Shown piece after piece: positions 853 through 44,043 of a DNA stretch of 54,552 nucleotides. A program made the translations under genes and the position numbers. The notes beneath the pieces are model-generated. The model was not told the origin of the DNA. It made no database searches and was given only the letters and a program-made list of their open reading frames with translations. How positions within the stretch are numbered: position 1 is the first letter of the stretch; each line of letters begins with the position of its first letter. The DNA comes from Lachnospiraceae bacterium (GTDB taxonomy: Bacteria > Bacillota > Clostridia > Lachnospirales > Bianqueaceae), in NCBI GenBank assembly GCA_021442595.1, contig JABUST010000117.1, positions 1 to 54,552 on the forward strand, in the 5' to 3' direction.

Positions 853-976
853 TAAGTATCCTATGGGAGTCGCCGAGAAAGCAGGAAATACAGATAAGCG
901 GCGACCGGAGGATAAAGATAAGTTGCCGCCTTTTGCAGAAGTTGGAAATCGCGGCGACCTGAATAAGGAGGCGACC

Positions 977-3900
977 ATGCTGCATCCGGGTTTATATGAG
1001 CAGATCATCAACCGGGCCCTATCCGGTGAGCTTTCGGGGATTCCCGAGGCCCGCAAGGCCGTTGCGCCCATTGACGAGGCGGAGGCCTCGAAGGTGCTGG
1101 CCAAATACATAGCGGATGTTGTACAAAAGGGTCTGGATAATGTGGTGGACAACGGGGGCGACATCGCATCCCAGGTGGAGCTGGCCAACCGTATCGTGGA
1201 GCTCATCAAAGGCGCCACCCGGGAGGAGGAATTCGAGTCCTTAAGTGTCGCACTGAGCGAAGACAGCAAGGCACAGCAGCTCCTGGCGCTCTTGCATGAT
1301 GCTGACCCGCGCCTGGCTCTGGGCAAGTCGGCTTCAGACATGGAGAGGCCGGAGACGTCCATCGCCCGGAGTTCCCTGTTCACGGGAGCTGTTCATGAGC
1401 CCCAGATGTACACGGAGCTGAAGAAGGAGATCCTCTCTGCAGACCGTATCGACATGCTGGTGTCCTTCATTAAGTGGAGCGGTCTTCGGCTTATCATGGA
1501 TGAGCTCAGGGAGTTCACTCAAAACGGCGGTGAACTGCGCATCATCACCACCTCCTACATGGGAGCCACCGATGTGAAGGCCATGGAGGAGCTGCGGAAG
1601 CTGCCCAACACGAAGATCAAAGTCAGCTATGACACCAAACGAACCCGCCTCCACGCCAAGACCTATGTTTTCTACAGAAACTCCGGATTTACCACCGCTT
1701 ACGTGGGCTCCTCCAACCTGTCCAATGCAGCCATATCCAGTGGTCTGGAGTGGAATGTGAAGGTGACCTGCACGGACCTGCCGGAGACCATTGACAAGAT
1801 TTCTGCTACCTTTGAAAGCTACTGGAACTCCTTTGAATTTGAATACTATTCTGAAGATCAGAAGGAGCGCCTGGCCAGAGCCCTCATGGCGGAAAAGTAC
1901 TTTGATAGCAACGACAGCAATCAATACACCATGGACATTGCACCCTATGCTTATCAGCAGGAGATCCTGGACAAGCTGGAGGCAGAGCGCCGGGTGCGGG
2001 GCTATACCCGGAATCTGGTGGTGGCTGCCACGGGAACCGGCAAGACCGTCATCTCTGCTTTGGACTATAAGCGCTTCTGCAAGCAGAATCCTCAGCATCC
2101 CTGCCGGTTGCTGTTTGTGGCTCATCGGGAGGAGATTTTGAAGCAGAGCCTGTACACCTTCCGGGCAGTTTTGAAGGATGCCAACTTCGGCGATCTCTTC
2201 GTGGGAAGCTATAAACCGGAGAGTATCGACCATCTTTTTATCTCCATACAGACCTTGAATTCTCAGGATTTTACAGAAAAGACGGCAAACGACTTTTTCG
2301 ATTACATCATCGTGGATGAGTTCCATCACGCGGCGGCCCCTACCTACAAAAAACTGCTGAACTACTATCAGCCGAAGATCCTCCTGGGCCTCACCGCCAC
2401 CCCGGAGCGTATGGACGGAAAGAGCATTCTGCCCTATTTTCATGACCGCATTGCGGCGGAGATCCGCCTGCCGGAGGCCATCGATCGGAAGCTGCTGTCT
2501 CCCTTCCAATATTTCGGCGTCACGGACACCATTGACCTGAATGACCTGAAGTGGAGCGTTGGGGGCTACGACAAGGGTGAGCTAACCAAGATTTATACCC
2601 TGAGTGGTATGATGGCTGAAAGACGGGCAGACCTGGTGGTACAATCTCTCCTCAAATATGTGACCGATATCGACAGGGTGAAGGGCCTTGGCTTTTGTGT
2701 ATCGATGGACCACGCGGAATTTATGTGCCGCTACTTTAATCAGAGGGGTATTCCCTCCATGTTCCTGACCGGGAACTCCCCGGATGAGGAGAGAAGGAGC
2801 GCCAAACAGAAGCTGGTTTCCGGAGATGTTCGCTTTATCTTTGTGGTGGATATTTATAACGAGGGTGTGGACATTCCGGAGGTGAACACGGTTCTCTTCC
2901 TGCGCCCCACAGAGTCTCTGACTATTTTCCTGCAGCAGCTGGGCCGTGGTCTCCGTTTGGCGGAGGATAAAGAGTGCCTGACAGTGCTGGATTTCATCGG
3001 TCAGGCCAATAAAAAATATAACTTTGAGGATAAGTTTGCAGCTCTCCTGTCCAACACCACCCGCAGTGTCACCAGAGAGATCAAGGACGGTTTTATCTCT
3101 GCCCCCAAGGGCTGCTATATTCAGCTGGAAAAGAAGGCTGCCGGATATATTCTGGATAATATCCGGGCTTCCTACGGAAACAGCGCCGGTCTGGTGAGCC
3201 GCATTGCATCCTTTGATTCGGATACCGGTCTGAAGCTGAGCCTGAAAAATTTTCTGGACTATTATCATTTGGATCCTAAAGCGCTGTATAAGTTCTCTTC
3301 CTTCTCCAGGTTGTGTGCCAGAGCGGATGTTCGTCCTGATTTTTCAGAGCCGTTGGAGGACATCCTGACCAGGGCTCTGGCAAAGTTGGCCCTTGCGGAC
3401 TCCAGGCGGTGGATTAGTTTCCTCCTGAAGCTTTTGCCGAATCTGGATGATACGGATTTTGACAAGCTGTCTGACCCGGAGCAACGCATGCTGCAGATGT
3501 TTTATGTGACTGTCTGGGGAAAGACTGTTCCCGAATGGCAGAGCGATGAGGTGTTGGATAATCTTTATGCCCTTGCGGACAGCCCGGTCATGCTGCATGA
3601 GCTCATGGAGCTTCTTGAGTACCGCTATGAGCAGATCGACTTCATTGACGAGCCGGTGGATCTGGGCTTTGAGAGTCCTTTGGATCTTCACTGCACCTAT
3701 ACCCGGGACCAGATTCTGGTGGCTATGGACTATATGAATCCTTCCATCGTCCGTGAGGGTGTGAAGTGGCTGCCGGAGAAGCAGCTGGATGTGTTCTTCG
3801 TGACTCTGAATAAGGCAGATAAGGACTATTCCCCCACCACCATGTACAACGACTATTCCATCAGCGAGAGTCTGTTCCATTGGCAGAGCCAGAGCACCAC

Positions 3901-4144
3901 ATCGGAGAACTCTGTGACCGGACAGCGGTACATTCATCATAGAGCTAAGGGGAGCCGCGTGCTGCTCTTTGTCCGGGAGTTTAAGACGGACCGCATTTCC
4001 GGAGGGGCAGAGGCTTATACCTTTCTGGGAACCGCCAATTATGTGAAGCATGTGGGCTCAAGACCCATGAATATTACCTGGAGATTGGATAGACCCATTC
4101 CCGCCAGGTTCCTCAAGAAAACCGGCAAGCTGGTGGTGGGATGA
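977..4144 (+). CDS. PLD-like nuclease / superfamily II helicase with DUF3427-type C-terminus
   Basis: A large (1055-residue) DNA-processing enzyme. Residues 1-130 are of unknown type. A phospholipase-D-like nuclease domain follows, with HAK at 226-228 and GSSN at 244-247. Next is a superfamily II helicase with Walker A ATGTGKT (351-357), a DEFH box (447-450), motif III LTATPER and motif VI QQLGRGLR (653-660). The C-terminal third resembles the DUF3427 family, ending in a typical GTANYVKHVGSRPMNI stretch. Start chosen at 977 because AAGGAGG lies at 965-971, five bases upstream; an in-frame ATG at 863 lacks this. The family is common in accessory and defence-type regions. No methyltransferase or other defence partner is seen, so a role in phage defence or repair is inference. 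Its stop codon lies in a tandem repeat. Confidence 0.85.
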   Translation: MLHPGLYEQIINRALSGELSGIPEARKAVAPIDEAEASKVLAKYIADVVQKGLDNVVDNGGDIASQVELANRIVELIKGATREEEFESLSVALSEDSKAQQLLALLHDADPRLALGKSASDMERPETSIARSSLFTGAVHEPQMYTELKKEILSADRIDMLVSFIKWSGLRLIMDELREFTQNGGELRIITTSYMGATDVKAMEELRKLPNTKIKVSYDTKRTRLHAKTYVFYRNSGFTTAYVGSSNLSNAAISSGLEWNVKVTCTDLPETIDKISATFESYWNSFEFEYYSEDQKERLARALMAEKYFDSNDSNQYTMDIAPYAYQQEILDKLEAERRVRGYTRNLVVAATGTGKTVISALDYKRFCKQNPQHPCRLLFVAHREEILKQSLYTFRAVLKDANFGDLFVGSYKPESIDHLFISIQTLNSQDFTEKTANDFFDYIIVDEFHHAAAPTYKKLLNYYQPKILLGLTATPERMDGKSILPYFHDRIAAEIRLPEAIDRKLLSPFQYFGVTDTIDLNDLKWSVGGYDKGELTKIYTLSGMMAERRADLVVQSLLKYVTDIDRVKGLGFCVSMDHAEFMCRYFNQRGIPSMFLTGNSPDEERRSAKQKLVSGDVRFIFVVDIYNEGVDIPEVNTVLFLRPTESLTIFLQQLGRGLRLAEDKECLTVLDFIGQANKKYNFEDKFAALLSNTTRSVTREIKDGFISAPKGCYIQLEKKAAGYILDNIRASYGNSAGLVSRIASFDSDTGLKLSLKNFLDYYHLDPKALYKFSSFSRLCARADVRPDFSEPLEDILTRALAKLALADSRRWISFLLKLLPNLDDTDFDKLSDPEQRMLQMFYVTVWGKTVPEWQSDEVLDNLYALADSPVMLHELMELLEYRYEQIDFIDEPVDLGFESPLDLHCTYTRDQILVAMDYMNPSIVREGVKWLPEKQLDVFFVTLNKADKDYSPTTMYNDYSISESLFHWQSQSTTSENSVTGQRYIHHRAKGSRVLLFVREFKTDRISGGAEAYTFLGTANYVKHVGSRPMNITWRLDRPIPARFLKKTGKLVVG

Positions 4145-4223
4145 AATCCTGGCAGTATGCGTCTACGGTGGGATGAGTACGGTGGCAGTATGCGTCTACG
4201 GTGGGATGAGTACGGTGGCAGGA
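4135..4223 (+). repeat. 33-bp tandem repeat overlapping the helicase stop codon
   Basis: Two perfect 33-bp copies (4151-4183 and 4184-4216) are flanked by partial copies. The ten bases GGTGGGATGA occur at 4135-4144, 4167-4176 and 4200-4209. The first contains the stop codon of the helicase gene, so the array seems to have grown out of the 3' end of the gene. Length is a multiple of three. Confidence 0.85.
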
Positions 4224-27034: not shown

Positions 27035-29870
27035 AGAAAACATGATCCGGATCCGGGGAGCTAATGAGAACAACCTGAAGGATCTGAATGTGACCATCCC
27101 CAGAGACAAGCTGGTGGTGCTGACGGGACTCTCCGGCAGCGGCAAGTCCTCTCTGGCCTTTGATACCATCTTCGCCGAGGGTCAGCGGCGCTACATGGAG
27201 TCCCTTTCCTCCTATGCCCGCATGTTCCTGGGCCAGATGGAAAAGCCGAATGTGGAGAGTATTGAGGGACTTTCTCCCGCTATTGCCATTGACCAGAAGA
27301 CCACCTCCAAAAACCCCAGATCCACCGTGGCTACCGTCACTGAGATCTATGACTACCTCCGGCTTCTCTACGCCCGCATCGGTGTGGTCCACTGCCCCTC
27401 CTGCGGGCGGGTCATTGAAAAGCAGAGCGTGGATCAGATGGTGGATACCGTCATGTCCTATCCTGCCGGGTCCCGGATCCAGCTGCTGGCTCCTGTGATT
27501 CAGGGAAGGAAGGGCCGTCACGAGAAGCTGCTGGAGAAGATGCAGAAGGACGGCTTCGTCCGGGCCTATGTGGACGGAGAGCTGCGCTCTTTAGATGAAG
27601 ACATTGAGCTGGAGAAGAATATCAAGCACACCATCGAAGTGGTGGTAGACCGCCTGGTGGTGAAGGAAGGCATCGAAGGTCGTCTGACGGATTCCATAGA
27701 GACGGTGCTGAAGCTTTCCGAGGGCCTGCTCTATGTGGATAAGGGAGAGAAGGGTAAGGATGTGTTCAGCGAGAACTTTGCCTGTCCTTTCTGCGGAATT
27801 TCCGTGGCTGAGCCGCAGCCCAGATCGTTCTCTTTTAACAATCCCTTCGGTGCCTGTCCCGACTGTCTGGGTCTGGGTGTTAAGTCCGAATTCGATATAG
27901 AACTGCTGGTTCCCAATCCTACTCTGTCTCTGAATGAGGGGGCCATTGCCGCCCCGGGCTTTGGGTCCATTTCAAATTCAGATAGCTACGGCGGTAAGGT
28001 CATCCGGGAACTGGCTCGCTTTCACGGCTTCTCCCTGGATACTCCCTGGAACGAGCTTCCGGAGAAGTTCCGCCGCATCATCATGCACGAGGGAGATGAT
28101 CATGTTTTTCGCATCTCCTATGAGGGACGGTACGGAAGCAGAGATTACGATATGAAATTCGAGGGTATTCTGCCCACCCTCAGGCGCCGGTACGATGAAA
28201 CACCGGAGAGCTTCCGGGGTGAATATGAGAGCTTTATGTCCCATACTCCCTGTCCCACCTGTCAGGGAAGCCGGCTGAAGAAGGATTCTCTGTCTGTACT
28301 GGTGGGAGGTTTGAACATTTCCGAGATTACCTCCATGTCCATCAAGAAGGCCAAAGCTTTCTTCGATCAGCTCTATCTGACGGATCGGGAGATGCTCATC
28401 GCCAACCAGCTGCTGAGGGAGATCCGGGCAAGACTGAACTTTCTGAATAACGTGGGTCTGGATTATCTGACTTTGGGAAGAGCGGCCGGGACGCTATCCG
28501 GCGGCGAGGCTCAGCGCATCCGTCTGGCCACCCAGATCGGCTCCGGCCTTATGGGAGTGCTGTATATTCTGGATGAGCCCAGCATCGGACTGCACCAGCG
28601 GGATAATTCCAAGCTGCTGTCTGCCCTGCTGCGGCTCAGAGATCTGGGCAATACTCTGGTGGTGGTGGAGCACGACGAGGAGACCATGCGGCTGGCGGAT
28701 CACATCGTGGACATCGGCCCCGGCGCCGGCATCCACGGAGGACGGCTGGTATGTCAGGGCACGGTGGAGGACATCTGTAACTGCAAGGAGTCCATCACAG
28801 GAGACTATCTCAGCGGCCGGAAGAAGATCCCGGTCCCCGAGAAGCGCAGGACTCCTGATGATCGGTGGATCCGTCTCCGGGGCTGCTTCAAGAATAACCT
28901 GGAAGGTACCGATTTTGACGTACCTGTTGGGGTGTTTACCTGCGTCACCGGAGTCTCCGGCAGCGGCAAGAGTACCTTCGTCAATGAGATCCTCTACAAG
29001 GCCATGGCCAGAGATCTGAACCGGGCCAAGGAGAAGCCGGGTCATTACGATTCCCTTACGGGACTGGAGCATCTGGATAAGGTCATCGTGATCGACCAGA
29101 GTCCTATCGGAAGAACTCCCAGGTCCAACCCTGCCACCTATACCGGTGTCTTTGATTTGATCAGGGATCTGTTTGCTTCCACCCAGGATGCCAAGATGCA
29201 CGGTTTCAGCAAAGGACGATTCTCCTTTAACGTTAAGGGAGGCCGATGTGAATCCTGTAACGGTGATGGCATTTTGAAGATCGAGATGCATTTCCTTCCG
29301 GATGTGTATGTGCCCTGTCAGGTCTGCCACGGAAAGCGGTACAACAGGGAGACTCTGGAGGTCCATTATAAAGGCAAATCCATTGCGGATGTGCTGGATA
29401 TGACGGTGGAAGAAGCCATGACCTTCTTTGAGAATGTGCCCCGGATCCGCAATAAGATCAAGACCATGCATGAGGTGGGTCTGTCTTATATTAAGCTGGG
29501 ACAGCCTTCCACGGAGCTTTCCGGCGGCGAGGCTCAGCGCATCAAGCTGGCCACGGAGCTATCCAGAAAGAGTACGGGTAAGACCTTCTACATTCTGGAT
29601 GAGCCCACCACGGGTCTGCACTTCGAGGATGTAAACAAGCTGCTGGATATGCTGCAGCGGCTGGTGGAGGCCGGAAATTCCGTGCTGGTCATCGAACATA
29701 ATCTGGATGTCATCAAGACGGCAGATTACATCATCGATCTGGGTCCCGAGGGAGGAGACAAGGGCGGTAAGGTCATCGCCTTCGGCACCCCCGAGGAGGT
29801 ATCCCAAGTGGAGGGTTCCTATACAGGCGCCTTCCTGAAGGATATTCTGTATCCGCAGGGAAATACATAA
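27024..29870 (+). CDS. uvrA: Excinuclease ABC subunit A
   Basis: The damage-sensing ABC ATPase dimer of nucleotide excision repair. The 948-residue protein has two ABC modules, each with Walker A (GLSGSGKSS near 33-41 and GVSGSGKST near 640) and an LSGGEAQRI signature, and the C-terminal zinc finger CESCNGDG...CQVCHG; a first zinc site CPFC...CPDC sits near 252-282. The start lies inside the uvrB 3' end. No terminator separates it from clpC 135 bases on. Confidence 0.98.
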
Positions 29871-34911: not shown

Positions 34912-36366
<1,455 letters not shown>

Positions 36367-37011
36367 TTAGCGAAGGGCGGCAATGTGCTGCGCATAGGTG
36401 CCGCCTTCACGGAAGAGTGCGCTGGTTCCCAGGACGAAACCGTCGGCTCCCAGCTTGGACAGATCGTCGATGACCTGCGGGCTGCAGGCACCGTCTACCA
36501 TAATTTTGAAACCGTATTTTTCTTTCAGCTTTGCCAGGCGGGCGATCTTGTCTCTGGTAAACTGAACGAATTTCTGACCGGAGAATCCGGGATTAACGGT
36601 CATTACCATAACATAATCGCACAGATTCAGGATCTCCTCGATGGAGGGGATGGATGTGTCGGGATTTATGGCGATGCCGGCAGAAGCTCCCAGTTCCTTG
36701 ATGTGGGCAAGGGTCTTGACCACGTAGCGTTCGGATTCGGGATGAATATAGATGATGCTGGCACCGGCTTTAATGAACCACTCCACCTTGTTGGCGGGAT
36801 TATCGATCATCAGGTGGCAGTCCACTGGTTTGGTGGCAGCTGCAGCAATGGCCTTGACATCCGTGACACCCATGGTGAAGTTGGGAACGAAGGTTCCGTC
36901 CATGATGTCACAGTGAAATACATCTATGCCGGCTTCTTCCAGCTGGTGGACGCTTTCTCTCAGGTTGCCGAAATCGGCGCACATCATGCTGGCGCAAAGA
37001 ATCTTTTCCAT
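36367..37011 (-). CDS. Ribulose-phosphate 3-epimerase family, probably allulose-6-phosphate 3-epimerase
   Basis: A 214-residue TIM barrel of the Rpe family. Metal and catalytic residues lie in FHCDIMDG, CHLM, MTVNPGFSGQKF and MVDGAC. Several stretches are nearer to AlsE than to housekeeping Rpe: SMMCADF instead of PSILSADF, and GTSALF at the phosphate-binding end, as far as I recall the E. coli AlsE sequence. AlsE turns allulose 6-phosphate into fructose 6-phosphate. Placed ten bases after rpiB and 18 before GH1, it belongs to the PTS sugar locus, which also argues against a pentose-cycle role. Plain Rpe activity is still possible. Confidence 0.85.
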   Translation of the reverse strand: MEKILCASMMCADFGNLRESVHQLEEAGIDVFHCDIMDGTFVPNFTMGVTDVKAIAAAATKPVDCHLMIDNPANKVEWFIKAGASIIYIHPESERYVVKTLAHIKELGASAGIAINPDTSIPSIEEILNLCDYVMVMTVNPGFSGQKFVQFTRDKIARLAKLKEKYGFKIMVDGACSPQVIDDLSKLGADGFVLGTSALFREGGTYAQHIAALR

Positions 37012-37021
37012 TGAGTGCTCC

Positions 37022-37483
37022 TTATTCAGCGGCGTTCAGATGCTGGGTGTTTTCAATCTCGGAGATCATGTCCACGCGAACCTGATGACGACCTCCCTCG
37101 TAGGAGGCGTTCAACCACTCATCCACGATCATCTTGGCAGTTTCCACACCGATGACCCGGGCGCCGAAAGCAATGATGTTGGTGTTGTTGTGCTGTCTGG
37201 AAAGCTTTGCGGTATAGGGATCGGAGCACACGCAGGCCCGGATGCCTTTGACCTTGTTGGCAGAGAGGGAAATGCCTACGCCGGTACCGCAGATCAGAAC
37301 ACCCAGATCTACCTCGCCGCCGGCTACCATCTTGGCTACTTTATATCCGGAAACAGGATAGTTGAATCTGTCGGAAGAATCGGTTCCTACATTAATGACT
37401 TCGATTCCCTTGGCCTCAAGGTAAGCTTTGATCTCGTTTTTCATGTCCACGGCGACATGATCATTTCCGATGGCAATTTTCAT
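37022..37483 (-). CDS. rpiB: RpiB/LacAB-family sugar-phosphate isomerase
   Basis: A 153-residue isomerase of the RpiB family, which interconverts ribose 5-phosphate and ribulose 5-phosphate; RpiB of E. coli also isomerises allose 6-phosphate to allulose 6-phosphate. Visible residues are the substrate-binding DH of GNDH (8-9), the catalytic Cys in LICGTGVG, and the SRQHNNTN loop. Start set at 37483 where AAGGAG (minus strand of 37491-37496) is seven bases upstream; a longer frame to 37567 has no such site. It heads the minus-strand operon. Confidence 0.9.
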   Translation of the reverse strand: MKIAIGNDHVAVDMKNEIKAYLEAKGIEVINVGTDSSDRFNYPVSGYKVAKMVAGGEVDLGVLICGTGVGISLSANKVKGIRACVCSDPYTAKLSRQHNNTNIIAFGARVIGVETAKMIVDEWLNASYEGGRHQVRVDMISEIENTQHLNAAE

Positions 37484-37653: not shown

Positions 37654-37676
37654 ATGTTTATTTAACATGTTTACAT
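37654..37676. promoter_or_regulatory. Candidate LacI-family operator between the divergent promoters
   Basis: ATGTTTATTTAACAT (37654-37668) has ATGTT/AACAT arms and overlaps ATGTTTACAT (37667-37676). The ATGTTTA core occurs twice, 13 bases apart, and resembles the GTGTTTA repeats at the EIIBC promoter. It covers the lacI -35 box (37670-37675). Confidence 0.45.
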
Positions 37677-37730: not shown

Positions 37731-38729
37731 ATGTCATCCGGTAAAAGAGTTTCCCTGCGAACTATCGCAAAAATGTGCGGTGTTTCTCCCGCCACTGTGT
37801 CCCGCATTGCCAATGGAAGCGGAGATTTCAGTGAAAAAACCAGAACGCTTGTGCTTGAAACCATGCGGCGTGAAGGTTATTTCAAAACAGAGGATAGTAT
37901 GTCCGGGATGCCGGCCAGCGCCATTGCTGTTTTGATTACCGATATTTCCAATGAATACTTTGCAGCAATGCTGCCGGTGATTACGGATTACTTTACGGAG
38001 AAGAACCTTCGCACGGCCATTCATTTGTTGGGATCGGATTCCAGGAAGAATGCTGCCTTGCTCAAATCACTTCAGAGCAGTGGGGTTGCCGGTATCATAG
38101 TCATCGGAACAACAAGGCTGGATTTGACAGATGCCGGTGTTCCCAATGTGTATCTGGCCAGCTTTCCTCTGGACAATGAAAGCCGCCGCTATACTGTCCG
38201 TTCCGATGAATTCGTGGGAGGCCAGCTGGCAGCGCAGGAGCTGTTAAGACGGGGCTGCAAGGATCCCATCGTATTGTTCAACCGTTTTATTAACCCGGAT
38301 ATTTCCCCCAGGCTGCAGGGTTTTCTGTATGAGTTTGAGTCCCAGGGCATTAAGATTCCCCAGGAGAAGGTCTTCATGGCGGATACCAGCAAAACTTCCT
38401 TTGATTCAGCCAGAGATATGGTCTCCTATCTTTGGACTAAGGGAGTGCCTTTCGACAGCATTTTTGCCTGCAGTGACTGGAGAGCCTGCGGCGCTCTGGT
38501 GGCACTGCAGAGTATCGGTGTCCGGGTACCGGAGGATGTAAGCATTGTAGGATATGACGCTATTCATCTTTCCCGCTGCCTGAATCCGTCTATTACCAGT
38601 GTTCGTCAGAACGTTCCCAATCTGGCCCGGTCAGCTTGTGATATGCTCTGGAAGCTTATGTGCGGAGAAGAGCCGGAGAACCCAAATATTCAGATCCCGG
38701 TGGATCTTCAGATCGGACGTACAACTTGA
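37731..38729 (+). CDS. LacI-family transcriptional regulator of the PTS sugar locus
   Basis: A 332-residue repressor. The N-terminal helix-turn-helix reads LRTIAKMCGVSPATVSRIANG (about 7-26), followed by a hinge and a periplasmic-binding-like sensor domain (about 62-330) with the usual SIVGYDAIHLSRCLNPSITSV stretch. Start at 37731 with TAAGGAGA upstream. It is divergent from the rpiB operon and upstream of the EIIBC operon, the arrangement of a local regulator. Repeats of a TGTTTA core at its own promoter and the EIIBC promoter are likely binding sites. The inducer should be a sugar phosphate or free sugar of the pathway. Confidence 0.93.
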   Translation: MSSGKRVSLRTIAKMCGVSPATVSRIANGSGDFSEKTRTLVLETMRREGYFKTEDSMSGMPASAIAVLITDISNEYFAAMLPVITDYFTEKNLRTAIHLLGSDSRKNAALLKSLQSSGVAGIIVIGTTRLDLTDAGVPNVYLASFPLDNESRRYTVRSDEFVGGQLAAQELLRRGCKDPIVLFNRFINPDISPRLQGFLYEFESQGIKIPQEKVFMADTSKTSFDSARDMVSYLWTKGVPFDSIFACSDWRACGALVALQSIGVRVPEDVSIVGYDAIHLSRCLNPSITSVRQNVPNLARSACDMLWKLMCGEEPENPNIQIPVDLQIGRTT

Positions 38730-38783: not shown

Positions 38784-38803
38784 TCCGGGTGAAAACACCC
38801 GGA
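38784..38803. other. Hairpin downstream of the lacI-family gene
   Basis: TCCGGGTG (38784-38791) pairs with CACCCGGA (38796-38803) around an AAAA loop. No T-tract follows, so it is probably a structure in the 3' untranslated part. Confidence 0.45.
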
Positions 38804-38836: not shown

Positions 38837-38877
38837 CTCCCGGAAGTGTTGCATAAGTGTTTAGCTTCCCGGGAGAC
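38837..38877 (+). terminator. Terminator of the lacI-family gene with an operator-like loop
   Basis: CTCCCGGAAG (38837-38846 region) pairs with CTTCCCGGGAG (one extra C), followed by ACTTATTTTCTG. The loop holds AGTGTTGCATAAGTGTTTA (38845-38863), of which an exact 19-base copy lies at the EIIBC promoter (38977-38995). Confidence 0.6.
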
Positions 38878-38908
38878 TTATTTTCTGTTGAAAATAAAGA
38901 AAAATGTG

Positions 38909-38937
38909 TTGACAATGGAAAGCGTGTGTGATATTTT
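38909..38937 (+). promoter_or_regulatory. Promoter of the EIIBC-EIIA-HPr-EI operon
   Basis: TTGACA (38909-38914), 17 bases, TATTTT (38932-38937). A large inverted repeat starts 12 bases after the -10 box, so a bound regulator would block the start of transcription. Confidence 0.75.
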
Positions 38938-38948
38938 GTGAAACAGAA

Positions 38949-39008
38949 AGGTAAACACTTTGGCCCGACATGGTGCAGTGTTGCATAAGTGTTTAATGGT
39001 GTTTACCT
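38949..39008. promoter_or_regulatory. Large operator-like inverted repeat at the EIIBC transcription start
   Basis: AGGTAAACAC (38949-38958) pairs with GTGTTTACCT (38999-39008) across 40 bases. Inside lies a second GTGTTTA (38989-38995) and the 19-base repeat shared with the lacI terminator loop (38977-38995). Two LacI-family dimers bound as half-sites, or one looped tetramer, would fit; an RNA stem is the alternative. Confidence 0.6.
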
Positions 39009-39065
39009 TCTGATTTTAAATAACGACAGCAGCGATACGCCTGTCAGAATGATGAGGAGAAAAGC

Positions 39066-40439
39066 ATGACACAAGAAAAAGCAAATGAACTCGCTCTTGC
39101 GATTGTCGAGAAAGTCGGCGGCAAAGAGAACATTGCTTCCCTGACTCACTGTGCAACCCGTCTGCGCTTCAAGCTGGTGGACATGGATAAGGCCAGCAAG
39201 GAAGAAGCCGGCAAGATCAAAGGTGTCGCCAGCGCTATCGTAAGCGGCGGTCAGTTCCAGGTCATCATCGGCAATGAGGTCAATGATGTATTTGAAGCTA
39301 TCCAGGCCAACACCGGTATTCAGGGTTCTGCTCTTAATGTAGTAGAGAAGGATGACCTGAAGGTTAAGAGCAAGGGAATGGATGTCGTGATCGATCTGGT
39401 CACCAGCATCTTTACTCCCATCCTTCCTGTTCTGATCGGCGCCGGTATGATCCGCGCTCTGCTTATGCTCTGCACTCAGTTCGGCTGGATGCAGGCTACC
39501 GATGGCACCTACATTGTTATCAACGAGATCTACAATGCCGTTTACTCTTTCCTGCCTGTTTACCTGGCATACTGCTCTGCTAAGCGCTTCAACTGCAACC
39601 CCATGATCGCAGTTGCTGTGGCTCTGACCATGGTCAGCTCCACGGTTCTGGGCGGCATCAAGGGAGAGAACGGACTACTCCTGCTTGGCATGAAGCTTTC
39701 CGCTCCTGCTCAGGGATACGGCTCCGGCATCATCCCCATCATCGTTACCATCTGGTTCATGAGCTATGTTGAAAAGCTCTGCACCAAGTTCATCCATCCT
39801 GTTGCCCGCAACATCCTGACTCCTCTGCTGTCCCTGATCATCACTGTTCCTGTGATGTTCCTGGTTTTCGGACCCATCTTCAGCACCCTTCAGTCCTGGC
39901 TGGGCGACGGATATACCGCTCTGTACAACTTCAGCCCCATCGTGACCGGTCTCATCATGGGTGGTCTGTGGCAGGTACTGGTGGTCTTCGGTCTGCACTG
40001 GGGTATCGTTCCTCTGGGAACCATCAACCTTTCCCTGTACGGCCGCAACACCATCAACGCTATCACCGGACCTTCCAACTGGTCTCAGGCAGGCGCTGCT
40101 CTTGGTGTAGCTCTTAAGACCAAGAACAAGGAGATCCGCGAGACTGCATTCTCCGCAGGTCTTACCGGTGTGTTCTCCATTACTGAGCCCGCTATCTACG
40201 GTGTAAACCTGAAGTACAAGACTCCCTTCTACTGTGGTGTCGTCTGCGCTACCATCTCCGGTGCTATCGCAGCTGCCGGTAATGCAGCCGCACTGGCAGG
40301 TGGCCCTGTAGGCATCCTGTCCTTCCCCCTGTTCATCGGCGAAGGCTTTGCATACTTCTGCGTGGCCATGGTCGTATCTCTGGTTGGTTCCGCAGTGCTG
40401 TCCTACATCACCTACAACCGCAAGAACGACGAGCTGTAA
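39066..40439 (+). CDS. PTS permease EIIBC, glucose/beta-glucoside superfamily
   Basis: The membrane permease that takes up and phosphorylates the sugar. The 457-residue protein has an N-terminal EIIB domain (about 1-85) with phosphocysteine Cys29 in HCATRLRF, then EIIC with about ten membrane segments (about 105-455) including the GITEPAIYG-like stretch, here SITEPAIYGVNL. No EIIA is fused; a separate EIIA gene is downstream. It opens the operon with an unknown protein, EIIA, HPr and EI. Sugar is not readable from sequence; beta-glucosides, sucrose, trehalose or allose are family substrates. Ribosome binding site GAGGAGA lies just before the ATG. Confidence 0.93.
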   Translation: MTQEKANELALAIVEKVGGKENIASLTHCATRLRFKLVDMDKASKEEAGKIKGVASAIVSGGQFQVIIGNEVNDVFEAIQANTGIQGSALNVVEKDDLKVKSKGMDVVIDLVTSIFTPILPVLIGAGMIRALLMLCTQFGWMQATDGTYIVINEIYNAVYSFLPVYLAYCSAKRFNCNPMIAVAVALTMVSSTVLGGIKGENGLLLLGMKLSAPAQGYGSGIIPIIVTIWFMSYVEKLCTKFIHPVARNILTPLLSLIITVPVMFLVFGPIFSTLQSWLGDGYTALYNFSPIVTGLIMGGLWQVLVVFGLHWGIVPLGTINLSLYGRNTINAITGPSNWSQAGAALGVALKTKNKEIRETAFSAGLTGVFSITEPAIYGVNLKYKTPFYCGVVCATISGAIAAAGNAAALAGGPVGILSFPLFIGEGFAYFCVAMVVSLVGSAVLSYITYNRKNDEL

Positions 40440-40462
40440 TTCTCTATCAGACAACATAAAGA

Positions 40463-40541
40463 CGGGAGCCTTCGGGCTCCCGCAAATAAAAAAGGGTTGT
40501 GATGCTCGCATCCTCAAGGTGTGTCCATCAAGACCCTTTTT
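40463..40541 (+). promoter_or_regulatory. Two consecutive stem-loops inside the PTS operon
   Basis: First, CGGGAGCC (40463-40470) pairs with GGCTCCCG (40475-40482) around a UUCG loop, with no T-tract. Second, AAAAAGGGT (40489-40497) pairs with ACCCTTTTT (40533-40541), containing an inner GATGC/GCATC hairpin (40501-40512). The second resembles a terminator with a branched loop. They may protect the EIIBC message or reduce expression of the downstream genes. Confidence 0.6.
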
Positions 40542-40568
40542 CAATAAGTACATGATCCGGAGGCAGTT

Positions 40569-41507
40569 GTGAGTAACGTTGTACGATTGATCAGCGCATC
40601 TAAAAGCGATTTTGAAAAAATGACCCCCATGGAGCTCAAGGAATCCATCTTTAAGTCCGAGGGACGGGTCATCATGGGTCAGCACCTGCTGTTTGCCAGC
40701 GAGGGTCTGGTCAGAGGCGTCACCAATTCCGAGGTGATGTTTGCCTTTGGAGCCGATATGGTGCTCCTGAACACTATTGATCTGGATAATATGGAGAATA
40801 ACCGGGGACTTCAGGGACTGAGCTATCAGGAATTGAAGGAGAGATGCGGCCAGCGTCCCATCGGTGTTTATCTGGGCTGCCCCAAGGCCGGCAGTGAGGA
40901 TGGCGGAAAGAAAGCTCTGTACCGCCGGGAAGGTATGGTCTGCACCCCCGAGCATGTCCAGAAGTGTGTGGATATGGGTGTTGATTTTGTTATCCTGGGA
41001 GGAAATCCCGGCAGCGGCACTTCCATTTCCGATGTGATCGCCTGCACCAGGTGGGTCAAGGAAAAGTACGGAGATCAGCTCTTCGTCTGGGCAGGCAAAT
41101 GGGAAGACGGCATCAACGAGAAGGTTCTGGGAGATCCTCTGGCCACATATGATGCAAAGGATGTGATCCGTCAGCTCATCGACGCCGGCGCAGACTGCAT
41201 CGATCTGCCTGCTCCCGGAAGTCGTCACGGAATCAGTGTTCATATGATCCAAAATCTGGTACAATATGTACATACCTATAAGCCCGGAACTTTGGCAATG
41301 ACTTTCCTGAACAGTTCGGTGGAGGGAGCCGATCCCGACACCATCCGTCTGGTTGCATTGATGATGAAGGAAACCGGAGCAGATATCCACGCTATCGGAG
41401 ACGGCGGTTTTTCCGGATGCACCTCTCCTGAGAATGTTCATCAGCTCAGTGTGTCCATCAAGGGAAGACCCTACACCTATTTCCGCATGGCAAGCTGGAA
41501 TAAATAA
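40569..41507 (+). CDS. Conserved PTS-operon protein of unknown function, TIM-barrel-like
   Basis: A 312-residue soluble protein I recognise only by its context. It looks like an alternating beta/alpha fold with glycine-rich loops such as LGGNPGSGTSISD (near 150), LPAPGSRHGISV (near 215) and AIGDGGFSG (near 275), the last resembling a phosphate-binding loop of TIM barrels. Proteins of this type recur next to beta-glucoside-like PTS genes, including, from memory, the Listeria allose cassette. GTG start with CCGGAGG (40557-40563) five bases before. It sits between EIIBC and EIIA and is likely a pathway enzyme acting on a sugar phosphate. No catalytic assignment is made. Confidence 0.75.
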   Translation: MSNVVRLISASKSDFEKMTPMELKESIFKSEGRVIMGQHLLFASEGLVRGVTNSEVMFAFGADMVLLNTIDLDNMENNRGLQGLSYQELKERCGQRPIGVYLGCPKAGSEDGGKKALYRREGMVCTPEHVQKCVDMGVDFVILGGNPGSGTSISDVIACTRWVKEKYGDQLFVWAGKWEDGINEKVLGDPLATYDAKDVIRQLIDAGADCIDLPAPGSRHGISVHMIQNLVQYVHTYKPGTLAMTFLNSSVEGADPDTIRLVALMMKETGADIHAIGDGGFSGCTSPENVHQLSVSIKGRPYTYFRMASWNK

Positions 41508-41521
41508 AAAGGAGACTGATT

Positions 41522-42034
41522 ATGGGACTTTTTGACTTTCTGAAGAAATCCTCCGTACCGGCCAGTGTTCCCGTTGAGGAAGTTCCCGGTACCATTCTGC
41601 AGCCCATCGAGGGAAAGATCATCCCGCTGGCAGACATTGCCGACGGCGTTTTTTCTGAGGGTGTTCTGGGCAACGGCTGCGGCGTCATTCCTGCTGCAGA
41701 AGCTGTATATGCACCCATCTCCGGTACCATCAGCACGGTGGCTGACACCAAGCATGCCGTAGGTATCGAGGGTGACGGCGTGGAAATGCTCATCCATGTG
41801 GGACTGGAAACAGTCTCCATGAACGGTAAGGGCTTTGATGTTAAGGTCAAGGAAGGGGATCAGGTGAAAGCCGGCCAACTCCTTATGACCTTCAGTCTCA
41901 ATGAAATGAGCAAAGCAGAAGGCGTTACGTCTACATCGGCCATCCTGGTTACCAATTCTGACGACCTGCCCTGCTGTGAGCAGCTGTTCACCGGAGACGG
42001 AAAAGTCGGAACCCCCATCATCAAGGTTAAATAA
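41522..42034 (+). CDS. PTS EIIA component, glucose type
   Basis: A 170-residue Crr-like EIIA that passes phosphate from HPr to EIIB. The phosphorylated His is His92 in EMLIHVGLETV, and the partner His78 lies in KHAVGI, both as in the family. The N-terminus MGLFDFLKKS resembles the membrane-binding helix of E. coli EIIA-Glc. AAAAGGAGA precedes the ATG, 15 bases after the previous stop. It completes the split EIIBC permease. Confidence 0.95.
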   Translation: MGLFDFLKKSSVPASVPVEEVPGTILQPIEGKIIPLADIADGVFSEGVLGNGCGVIPAAEAVYAPISGTISTVADTKHAVGIEGDGVEMLIHVGLETVSMNGKGFDVKVKEGDQVKAGQLLMTFSLNEMSKAEGVTSTSAILVTNSDDLPCCEQLFTGDGKVGTPIIKVK

Positions 42035-42052
42035 TCTAAAAGGAGATACACC

Positions 42053-42313
42053 ATGAAGGAATTTAGTTTTGCTGTGACCGATCCCCTTGGCATCCATGCT
42101 CGTCCCGCCGGACTGCTGGCTAAGCTTTGCAAGGGATTTGAAGGAACCACCGTTACCGTAGTTAAGGGTGACAAGGAAGCTAAGGCTTCTCAGCTGATGA
42201 AGCTCATGAGCCTGGCAGTAAAGAGCGGTGACACTGTTACCGTAAAAGTAGAAGGTCCTGCAGAGAACGAGGCTTTTGCCGCTCTGGAAGCTTTCTTTAA
42301 AGAAAATCTGTAA
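42053..42313 (+). CDS. HPr-like phosphocarrier protein with altered Ser46 region
   Basis: An 86-residue HPr. The phosphorylated His15 is intact in GIHARPAGLL. The regulatory region reads KASQLMKLMSL; aligned on the MSL anchor, the position of Ser46 in standard HPr (KSIMGVMSL) falls on Gln47 and a Ser sits one place before. This suggests the protein may not be a normal HPr kinase substrate and would escape that control, though raw numbering keeps a Ser at 46. AAAGGAGA precedes the ATG, 19 bases after EIIA. A second, housekeeping HPr would be expected elsewhere in the genome. Confidence 0.93.
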   Translation: MKEFSFAVTDPLGIHARPAGLLAKLCKGFEGTTVTVVKGDKEAKASQLMKLMSLAVKSGDTVTVKVEGPAENEAFAALEAFFKENL

Positions 42314-42322
42314 TTTGAGCCT

Positions 42323-42362
42323 CCCGGGGAGTGCCGCAGCCCGGCGCTTCCCGGGGTTTTCT
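42323..42362 (+). terminator. Intra-operon terminator between HPr and EI
   Basis: CCCGGGGAGTGCCG (42323-42336) pairs with CGGCGCTTCCCGGG (42342-42355 region, two G-T wobbles), followed by GTTTTCTATT. It should lower EI expression relative to HPr. Confidence 0.7.
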
Positions 42363-42387
42363 ATTCCATTGAAAGGAGAAGTCTATC

Positions 42388-44043
42388 ATGATCCTGATGC
42401 AGGGCAAGGGTGTGTCCCGAGGAGTGACCACCGGTAAGCTGTATTTTTTCAAACGTGTGGATACCACTGTGGAACAGCGCTCCGTTGATGATGTGGAGGC
42501 GGAGAAGGAACGAGTCAGACAGGCTCAGGAAAAGTCCATTGCGCAGCTGGAGGTACTGGCTGAAAAATGCCGCCGGGAAGCAGGGGACGAGGCAGCGGTG
42601 CTCTTTGAGACCCACGCTATGTTTGTAGAGGACGAGGATTACGTAGAGTGCATCAACACCACCCTGGAGGACGAAGGGTGCAATGCAGAGTTTGCAGTCC
42701 AGACGGCAGGCGAGCAGTTTGCCGCCATGTTTGCCGCCATGGATGATGCCTACATGCAAGCCCGGGCTGCGGATATCACAGATGTGACCCGCCGTATTCT
42801 CAACAATCTGATGGGTGTTGCAGAAGGAGGCATTGACTCCGATGAGCCTGTGATCCTGGCTGCAGACGATCTGGCTCCCTCTGAGACGGTGCAGCTGGAT
42901 AAATCCAAGATTCTGGGCTTTGCTACTCAGGGCGGATCCGGCAACAGCCATACTGCTATTCTGGCCCGCACCATGGGAATTCCCGCTGTCTGCGGACTGG
43001 GAGATGCCCTGAAAAATGAATATGAAGGCCGTGTGGCATACATGGACGGTGAGACCGGTCAGGTTTTCCTGGATCCCGATGAACTGACGGCTGCAGGTCT
43101 GAAGACCAAATATGAAAAGCAGCAGGAAATGAAGATGCTGCTGCAGGAAATGAAGGGGAAAGAGGATGTGACCCTGGACGGAAAGCATGTGAATGTGTAT
43201 TGCAACATCGGCTCTCCGGAGGATCTGAACGCGGTGCTTCAGAATGACGGTCAGGGCATCGGTCTTTTCCGCTCCGAATTCCTGTATCTTGCCTCCAATG
43301 ACTATCCCACCGAGGACCAGCAGTTTGAAGCTTACAAAGCAGTGGCTGCCGGCATGAACGGCAAGCGGGTCATCATTCGAACACTGGATATCGGCGCAGA
43401 CAAGCAGGTGGATTACTTCGATCTGAAGAAAGAAGAGAATCCGGCCATGGGTCTGCGAGCCATCCGTATCTGCCTGAATCGTCCGGAGGTGTTCCGCACC
43501 CAGCTCAGGGCTCTGTACCGCGCTTCTGCCTTCGGCAAGGTGGCCATCATGTTCCCCATGATCACTTCCGTATGGGAAGTGAAGGAGTGCAAACGGGCCT
43601 GCGCTGCTGTGATGAAAGAGCTGACGGAGGAAGGAATTCCCTTTAATCCGGATACGGAGATCGGCGTGATGATCGAGACTCCCGCTTCTGTCTTTGTGGC
43701 AGAGGACCTGGCAAAGGAAGTGGACTTCTTCTCTGTAGGAACCAATGACCTGACACAGTACACGCTGGCCTGCGACCGTCAGTGCAATGATCTGGGCAAG
43801 TTCTTCGATCCTCATCATCCGGCAGTTCTTCGCGCCCTGAAGATGGCAGCGGATGCTGCTCATAAAAACGGTATCTGGATCGGCATCTGCGGTGAGCTGG
43901 GAGCAGATATTTCTCTGCTTCCCACATTCCTCGCCATGGGCATGGATGAACTCAGCGTCACTCCTTCTGCGGTGCTGCCTCTGAGAGCGGAGATCCGCAA
44001 GTCCATTGCACAGACCTGCGACCTGAAGCTGCTGGAGTGCTGA
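42388..44043 (+). CDS. PTS enzyme I (phosphoenolpyruvate-protein phosphotransferase)
   Basis: Takes phosphate from PEP and gives it to HPr. The 551-residue protein has the phosphohistidine His188 in GGSGNSHTAILAR (canonical GGRTSHTAI), the PEP-binding TIM barrel with DIGADKQ and RAIRICL, the SVGTNDLTQYTLACDR signature and the catalytic Cys in ICGELGAD. AAAGGAG precedes the ATG. It is the last gene of the PTS operon and has a strong terminator after it. A full EI in a sugar operon is unusual; it may be the only EI of the cell or a dedicated copy. Confidence 0.95.
   Translation: MILMQGKGVSRGVTTGKLYFFKRVDTTVEQRSVDDVEAEKERVRQAQEKSIAQLEVLAEKCRREAGDEAAVLFETHAMFVEDEDYVECINTTLEDEGCNAEFAVQTAGEQFAAMFAAMDDAYMQARAADITDVTRRILNNLMGVAEGGIDSDEPVILAADDLAPSETVQLDKSKILGFATQGGSGNSHTAILARTMGIPAVCGLGDALKNEYEGRVAYMDGETGQVFLDPDELTAAGLKTKYEKQQEMKMLLQEMKGKEDVTLDGKHVNVYCNIGSPEDLNAVLQNDGQGIGLFRSEFLYLASNDYPTEDQQFEAYKAVAAGMNGKRVIIRTLDIGADKQVDYFDLKKEENPAMGLRAIRICLNRPEVFRTQLRALYRASAFGKVAIMFPMITSVWEVKECKRACAAVMKELTEEGIPFNPDTEIGVMIETPASVFVAEDLAKEVDFFSVGTNDLTQYTLACDRQCNDLGKFFDPHHPAVLRALKMAADAAHKNGIWIGICGELGADISLLPTFLAMGMDELSVTPSAVLPLRAEIRKSIAQTCDLKLLEC

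Follow-up and report, generated by a model that had tools for sequence, protein, structure and literature searches.

Between the gene of a LacI-family regulator and the first gene of a PTS operon in the window (the whole 54,552-nucleotide stretch of DNA analysed here), a 19-base word, AGTGTTGCATAAGTGTTTA, occurs exactly twice, at 38845–38863 (copy 1) and 38977–38995 (copy 2), with a step of 132 bp. On balance we think that these 19-mers probably are operator elements of the adjacent LacI-family protein (37731–38729), which would have captured the PTS operon, and that its half-sites are loosely arranged there; comparison of sequences supports a half-site link between the 19-mers and the operators of the regulator's homologues. 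The features on which the argument depends are as follows:

37022–37483, minus strand: rpiB (ribose-5-phosphate isomerase B type; NCBIfam TIGR01120 above cut-off), divergent from lacI
37655–37676, plus strand: candidate operator in the divergent lacI/rpiB promoter, at the same place as GCAACATGTTGC in the homologues
37731–38729, plus strand: LacI-family regulator, 332 aa (PF00356, PF13377; alignment, tree)
38784–38803, plus strand: hairpin behind lacI, 8 pairs, AAAA loop, no U-tract (fold)
38837–38875, plus strand: copy 1 hairpin, arms 38837–38847 and 38864–38875, followed by a weak U-tract (fold)
38845–38863, plus strand: 19-mer copy 1, half-sites TGTTGCAT at 38847 and TGTTTA at 38858
38909–38937, plus strand: predicted EIIBC promoter, TTGACA-17-TATTTT, 10/12 matches
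38944–38959, plus strand: inverted repeat, left arm, carrying the inverted half-site TGTTTACC (minus strand, 38957–38950)
38977–38995, plus strand: 19-mer copy 2, half-sites TGTTGCAT at 38979 and TGTTTA at 38990
38998–39012, plus strand: inverted repeat, right arm, carrying a further tandem half-site TGTTTACC at 39000
39066–40439, plus strand: PTS EIIBC of the beta-glucoside type, first gene of EIIBC-DUF7916-EIIA-HPr-EI

The sequence-only reading of this region had reported the exact 19-mer at both positions, and this was borne out: with up to three mismatches allowed these are the only two matches genome-wide (no third copy in 2,249,566 bases, 94% complete), and 0.02 matches are expected at that stringency from shuffled windows. 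When the 336-bp lacI–EIIBC gap was dinucleotide-shuffled 2000 times, no direct repeat was longer than 14 bases, and a chance origin of the 19-mer is rejected on that ground. Within each copy TGTTGCAT is followed in tandem by TGTTTA, 11 bp apart, and the copies lie at about −99 and +34 relative to the predicted EIIBC start, with the predicted promoter in between. The gap has two promoter-like pairs, of which this is the better one, and transcription of EIIBC would start near 38944; in the promoter scan, 1.7 kb of sequence yielded 4 promoter-like sites versus 2.0 ± 1.4 in shuffles, which alone is weak support. Elsewhere the window has two more exact repeats of 19 bases or longer: a 39-base sequence at 4150–4221 that recurs exactly in tandem, overlapping itself at a step of 33 bp, just behind a long gene (863–4144) that is helicase-like by eye, and an exact 24-base direct repeat at 28497–29543, whose copies, at 28497 and 29520, are 1023 bp apart.

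Copy 2 lies, as had also been stated, within a large inverted repeat at the EIIBC start, and it forms part of a cluster of half-sites there. Before it is the inverted TGTTTACC at 38957–38950, and 3′ of it is an extra unit, GTGTTTACC (38999–39007), whose half-site TGTTTACC is 10 bp on from copy 2's TGTTTA, so the cluster over the start comprises the inverted half-site and direct ones at 38979, 38990 and 39000. The inner edges of the direct half-sites are 21, 32 and 42 bp from the inverted one, which puts all four on about the same side of the DNA helix. A single one of them is GTTGCAT; the other three are GTTTA. The gap as a whole holds seven TGTT(GC/TA) half-sites on the two strands (shuffle mean 0.66, maximum 4 in 2000), and the top two of 646 overlapping 336-bp stretches of the window in half-site density are both here, for a motif that was picked after seeing the sequence and with two of the seven half-sites coming from the non-independent duplicate copy. 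All three GTGTT-N5/6-GTGTT arrangements in the window are in this place (0.08 expected), and of the 7 TGTTTACM matches in the window (1.01 expected) 4 fall outside the regions discussed here. Across the 54.5 kb of the window TGTTGCAT is confined to the two 19-mers; that number is what chance would give (1.94 expected; at least two in 57 of 100 shuffles), and thus only their places are informative. The EIIBC gap contains no palindrome of the AACATGTT type (four 16-mers reach 12/16, all of other kinds), and at the EIIBC start there is no CG-centred even palindrome, the canonical LacI-family operator. Two CG-centred 16-mers of at least 10/16 are present in the whole gap, GAACTCCCGGAAGTGT (38834) and AGCTTCCCGGGAGACT (38863, 12/16); both belong to the copy 1 hairpin and neither is of the AAACGTTT kind.

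The regulator has a LacI helix-turn-helix (PF00356, 33.7 bits; cut-off 27) and a periplasmic-binding-like core (PF13377, 88.7 bits; cut-off 26.5). Its best NCBIfam match is an RbsR model, under cut-off, and it is not a member of the CytR family by that family's model (89.5 bits versus a cut-off of 436). Homologues at E 1e-30 or better were found in six of the 18 other genomes of its family, and an order sample of 392 genomes gave, at E 1e-50, the same six and its own genome only; none of the 50 candidate stretches from a first contig search with this protein was confirmed as a relative. Identity to the homologues is 36–42%, and in a tree the window protein and five homologues form one clade (100/100), from which L038 was left out, as it was from the alignment, since it starts inside the LacI gene. 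The tree kept 8 of 12 intended paralogues (L013, L014, L017 and L018, in which a motif filter gave no reading frame, were left out) and has long branches among them. The window protein branches outside all five homologues, though two share its genus, and its history may therefore be something other than simple descent. The usual hinge-helix motif, which we defined after viewing the alignment, is absent from the window protein and from all five aligned homologues, and present in all five aligned LacI proteins that adjoin related EIIBC operons (from the best 80 of 579 stretches; L072, whose LacI is cut by the contig end, and L075, with no LacI beside EIIBC, were left out of the alignment). A comparison in PMC2329647 links a missing conserved hinge alanine and leucine to a missing central CG, and the AT-centred operators of the homologues agree with that comparison. 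The survey in PMC4052901 gives a central pair other than the usual one for 49 of 1303 regulators, rare but known, and according to PMC12051234 flexible interdomain linkers uncouple LacI-family DNA-binding domains from dimer constraints.

Those operators are copies of the palindrome GCAACATGTTGC, exact in all six homologue-bearing genomes at 7 sites. Five of the sites precede lacI (L036, L037, L039, L004 and L005), where the divergent gene is rpiB in L004 and L005 (by resemblance) and of the GH1 type in L036, L037 and L039 (that of L037, full in L064, matches Pfam PF00232); the sixth (L068) and seventh (L067) are upstream of GH1-glucosidase genes (PF00232). The word TGTTGCAT that begins the tandem of each 19-mer is identical to the lacI-side half of the operator in all five homologue lacI promoters. 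It is present in six of the seven homologue sites (the exception is L067), and the check named with the sequence-only reading, conservation of the motif in related loci, has a mixed outcome: the half-site is kept, and the whole 19-mer is absent from every locus compared when the gap was searched by BLASTN against the relatives' loci, where matches outside window DNA were at most 29 bases long with E 0.079 or worse. We found no genome with the same EIIBC promoter, and the 19-mer is thus without a phylogenetic footprint. Four of the six genomes have one more half-site at a distance of exactly 22 bp from the centre of the operator: it is present at L036, L005 and L068 (L036 and L068 being nearly identical in sequence) and, reading TGTTAC, at L004; L037, L039 and L067 have none there. 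The intact 12-bp palindrome has no site with one mismatch or fewer in the window's own genome, and at that stringency its counts in the six genomes together are no higher than in a reversed control, so that only exact sites are informative. Literature matches to GCAACATGTTGC were only, by title, on a fly and on insects, and a search short of all print gave no published account of this operator arrangement by title or abstract start.

The TGTTTA cores that had been described at the divergent promoter are located at 37655 and 37668. The candidate operator there consists of TGTTTA at 37655 and a AACATGTT-centred site (centre 37667/37668) that overlaps the lacI −35 TTTACA (37670); at the position of the homologues' operator the window reads AACATGTTTACA, with the −35 TTTACA inside it. 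As a palindrome this scores 10/16, and nine others in the same 247-bp region are equal or better. When the own genome was scanned with the lacI-type site, there were 64 matches in forward and 62 in reverse orientation, versus 34 and 35 for the reversed control, and the motif is therefore too loose to define a regulon. In the survey of PMC4052901 the distances between LacI-family sites peak at 13, 22 and 32 bp; the window has spacings of 13 in the lacI region and of 21 and 32 in the EIIBC cluster, these being between half-sites, whereas that survey counts whole sites. Counting against the 19-mers as sites of this regulator are its distance from the homologues (36–42%) and its basal branch outside all five, as well as the unremarkable palindrome at the lacI site in its own region and the flat one-mismatch GCAACATGTTGC control; because of the last two, our confidence is slightly lowered.

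The genes at 39066–44043 form one run with a full private PTS set (EIIBC, EIIA, HPr and EI) and a DUF7916 protein. DUF7916 genes are also found one or two genes behind EIIBC in L069–L074, six of six tested (from the best 80 of 579 stretches). Two strong hairpins between EIIBC and the DUF7916 gene (40463–40482 and 40489–40541; the fold of 40486–40545 has −25.8 kcal/mol and z −7.13, with no Rfam match at gathering score) are likely a terminator or attenuator inside the PTS operon. Facing the regulator, at 34912–37483, are genes for a 6-phospho-beta-glucosidase, a ribulose-phosphate 3-epimerase and RpiB, which together with the PTS could form a route for using beta-glycosides of allose or a similar sugar, as the known allose pathway suggests.

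Within its genus this EIIBC is matched in 4 of 6 other genomes, and there only at 31% identity; of 391 genomes sampled across the class only its own has it at E 1e-110, and an order-wide sample of 392 genomes has it at 1e-100 in five, its own included. The nearest relatives among the best 80 of 579 confirmed stretches (nearer ones may exist) are seven loci, 62–74% identical, from Erysipelotrichaceae MAGs (Solobacterium included), one Clostridia MAG and Atopobium. A divergent LacI gene adjoins EIIBC in six of these seven (L075 is the exception), and the gap contains CG-centred palindromes of at least 12/16 in five (L069, L071–L074), starting 6–8 bp after the −10 in the four loci with promoter hexamers; no such palindrome is in the L070 and L075 gaps, and L070 has, by eye, CGTAAACGTTTATA near its start. 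The own genome (94% complete) has no close copy of the L070 LacI, its best match being the window protein at 28%. The EIIBC operon appears to have changed its repressor, because most of these relatives have their own LacI and CG-centred operators and there is no close own-genome copy of the L070 LacI. The earlier view of the repeated word as a site of a LacI-family regulator gains in part from this lack of a close copy of the LacI that adjoins a related EIIBC operon, and in part from the half-sites common to the operators of the regulator's homologues. That an operator of the canonical type seen in the EIIBC relatives survives at the EIIBC start was considered and rejected, as CG-centred 16-mers of at least 10/16 in the gap are found only in the copy 1 hairpin.

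Could the same elements act in RNA instead? Under such an explanation, which we consider unlikely, a 15-pair stem at the 5′ end of the EIIBC mRNA could protect the message or switch between two pairings (38952–38960 with 38987–38995, or 38950–38958 with 38999–39007), and copy 1 would be the loop of a terminator hairpin behind lacI. The predicted folds speak for it: the inverted repeat at 38944–39012 has 15 pairs (14 Watson-Crick and one U-G) with one bulge, the leader (38943–39016) has −27.2 kcal/mol and z −4.28, and the copy 1 hairpin (11 pairs, the innermost U-G, and one bulge) has −19.3 kcal/mol and z −3.64, with 0 of 200 shuffles as good in either case; in addition, the inverted repeat reaches 5 bp past the half-sites (CAGAA/TTCTG), and the copy 1 loop and the leader arm are complementary at 12 of 13 positions. 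Against it, z falls to −2.63 when the rest of the leader is included, the minimum-energy fold changes if the leader starts two bases later (the centroid is unchanged), no U-tract is seen after the leader stem, Rfam has no family match in the region, by which a known RNA family is rejected, and the same-strand word upstream carrying the homologues' half-site is left unexplained. Copy 1 had previously been put in the loop of the lacI terminator; in the predicted fold it indeed makes up the hairpin loop, plus three bases of the left arm, and the identification of this hairpin as the lacI terminator is plausible only: the lacI stop is upstream at 38729, the tail, ACTTATTTTCT, is a weak U-tract, and the hairpin was not listed by a terminator scan that allows loops of 3–8 only.

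We give a still lower probability to a recent short duplication or functionless remnant. Only 19 bp are common to the two copies, their flanks differ and neither is in any relative compared, all of which a duplication would accommodate, but the word carries the homologues' half-site and is present on both sides of the promoter among further half-sites, and the shuffles come nowhere near the repeat length and half-site density seen locally.

A winged-helix response regulator that reads the tandem 11-bp unit is very improbable. Regulators of the OmpR/PhoB/WalR kind bind direct repeats with an 11-bp step in a 7-4-7 layout, and AGTGTTG-CATA-AGTGTTT-A has that layout; but both 11-bp units miss one letter of the WalR consensus, and a multi-target regulator should have more sites than the few of the 17-mer TGTTGCATAAGTGTTTA, which has three further matches in the genome, each with 3 mismatches, as many as in the reversed control. 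To CcpA bound to the split inverted repeat as a cre-var site we assign hardly any probability, and reject it as the main reading: the arms GGTAAA...TTTACC and their complementary flanks resemble the cre-var layout in PMC5263246, but there is one mismatch per core, the 46-nt spacer is beyond the 0–40 nt searched in that paper, and the 94%-complete genome has no protein over the CcpA cut-off (TIGR01481; the best match is the window LacI with 103.8 bits versus 442.35, a strict cut-off that 2 of 14 control genomes pass).

If the 19-mers are, as we favour, operator elements of the adjacent LacI-family protein, we infer binding, repression, co-operation or looping and operon capture as follows: without inducer, the protein would occupy the cluster at the EIIBC start and block initiation; copy 1, some 99 bp upstream of the predicted start, would serve as a second site; and dimers on the two copies could co-operate, possibly via a DNA loop as in gal. 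Binding at copy 1 might also affect read-through from lacI into the PTS operon, as the sequence-only reading suggested. With 10.5 bp per turn the 132 bp between the copies make 12.6 turns, and this phasing is no argument for looping. Because it is without the usual hinge motif, the protein may tolerate direct and widely spaced half-sites, as CytR does; the operon, which has a LacI of its own in relatives, would have been captured by it. Of the accounts considered, control by a LacI-family protein through half-sites in flexible positions is the best supported, its kind known and this variant new. A broader and more doubtful proposal, which we put forward tentatively, is that loss of the hinge helix has freed a LacI clade of this bacterial family from the need for a CG-centred palindrome; the clade would read TGTTGCAT/TGTTTA singly, in tandem or inverted, and would have captured a foreign PTS operon via phased half-sites on both sides of its promoter, as a parallel to CytR that is independent of it and may work without CRP. 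The locus provides a natural test of how operator grammar responds when members of a very large regulator family lose the hinge helix, and it is probably a case of an operon with a changed repressor; since the homologues have clean palindromes and the window a loose version, both can be assayed with one protein family.

How does this arrangement compare with known systems? The EIIBC relatives L069 and L071–L074 (from the best 80 of 579 stretches) share with the window a LacI gene next door to EIIBC, but there it is divergent from EIIBC, its product has the hinge motif, and the operators are of the GTAAACGTTTAC/GTTAAACGATTAAC kind with a CG centre; the LacI proteins beside related EIIBC genes (five aligned, same best 80 of 579) are 24–27% identical to the window's. 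Clostridial cre-var sites, which are bound by the LacI-family protein CcpA and described in PMC5263246 as having the core TGTAAA/TTTACA and a variable spacer, are likewise split inverted repeats with complementary flanks, but the window has the core GGTAAA/TTTACC, a 46-nt spacer and no CcpA over cut-off. In the E. coli gal operon, GalR loops DNA between OE and OI at −60.5 and +53.5, 113 bp apart (PMC4693257); the window's copies, at about −99 and +34 and 132 bp apart, similarly have the promoter between them, but gal has single 16-bp operators about 11 turns apart, whereas the window has tandem half-sites and a spacing that is not a whole number of turns. E. coli CytR, according to PMC3454398, recognizes octamer half-sites, GTTGCATT, with an optimum in inverted order with 2 bp between them, and also accepts direct repeats and spacers of whole turns, those of two and three turns being described there as unseen in nature. 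CytR works with CRP, and the window's direct octamers are 3 bp apart versus the 1 bp given there as conserved for CytR. The operators of the homologues, on the other hand, are ATGCAAC-AT-GTTGCAT (L036) or close to it, and in the window GTTGCATA is joined by a second, directly repeated unit, a resemblance to CytR operators that is one of layout.
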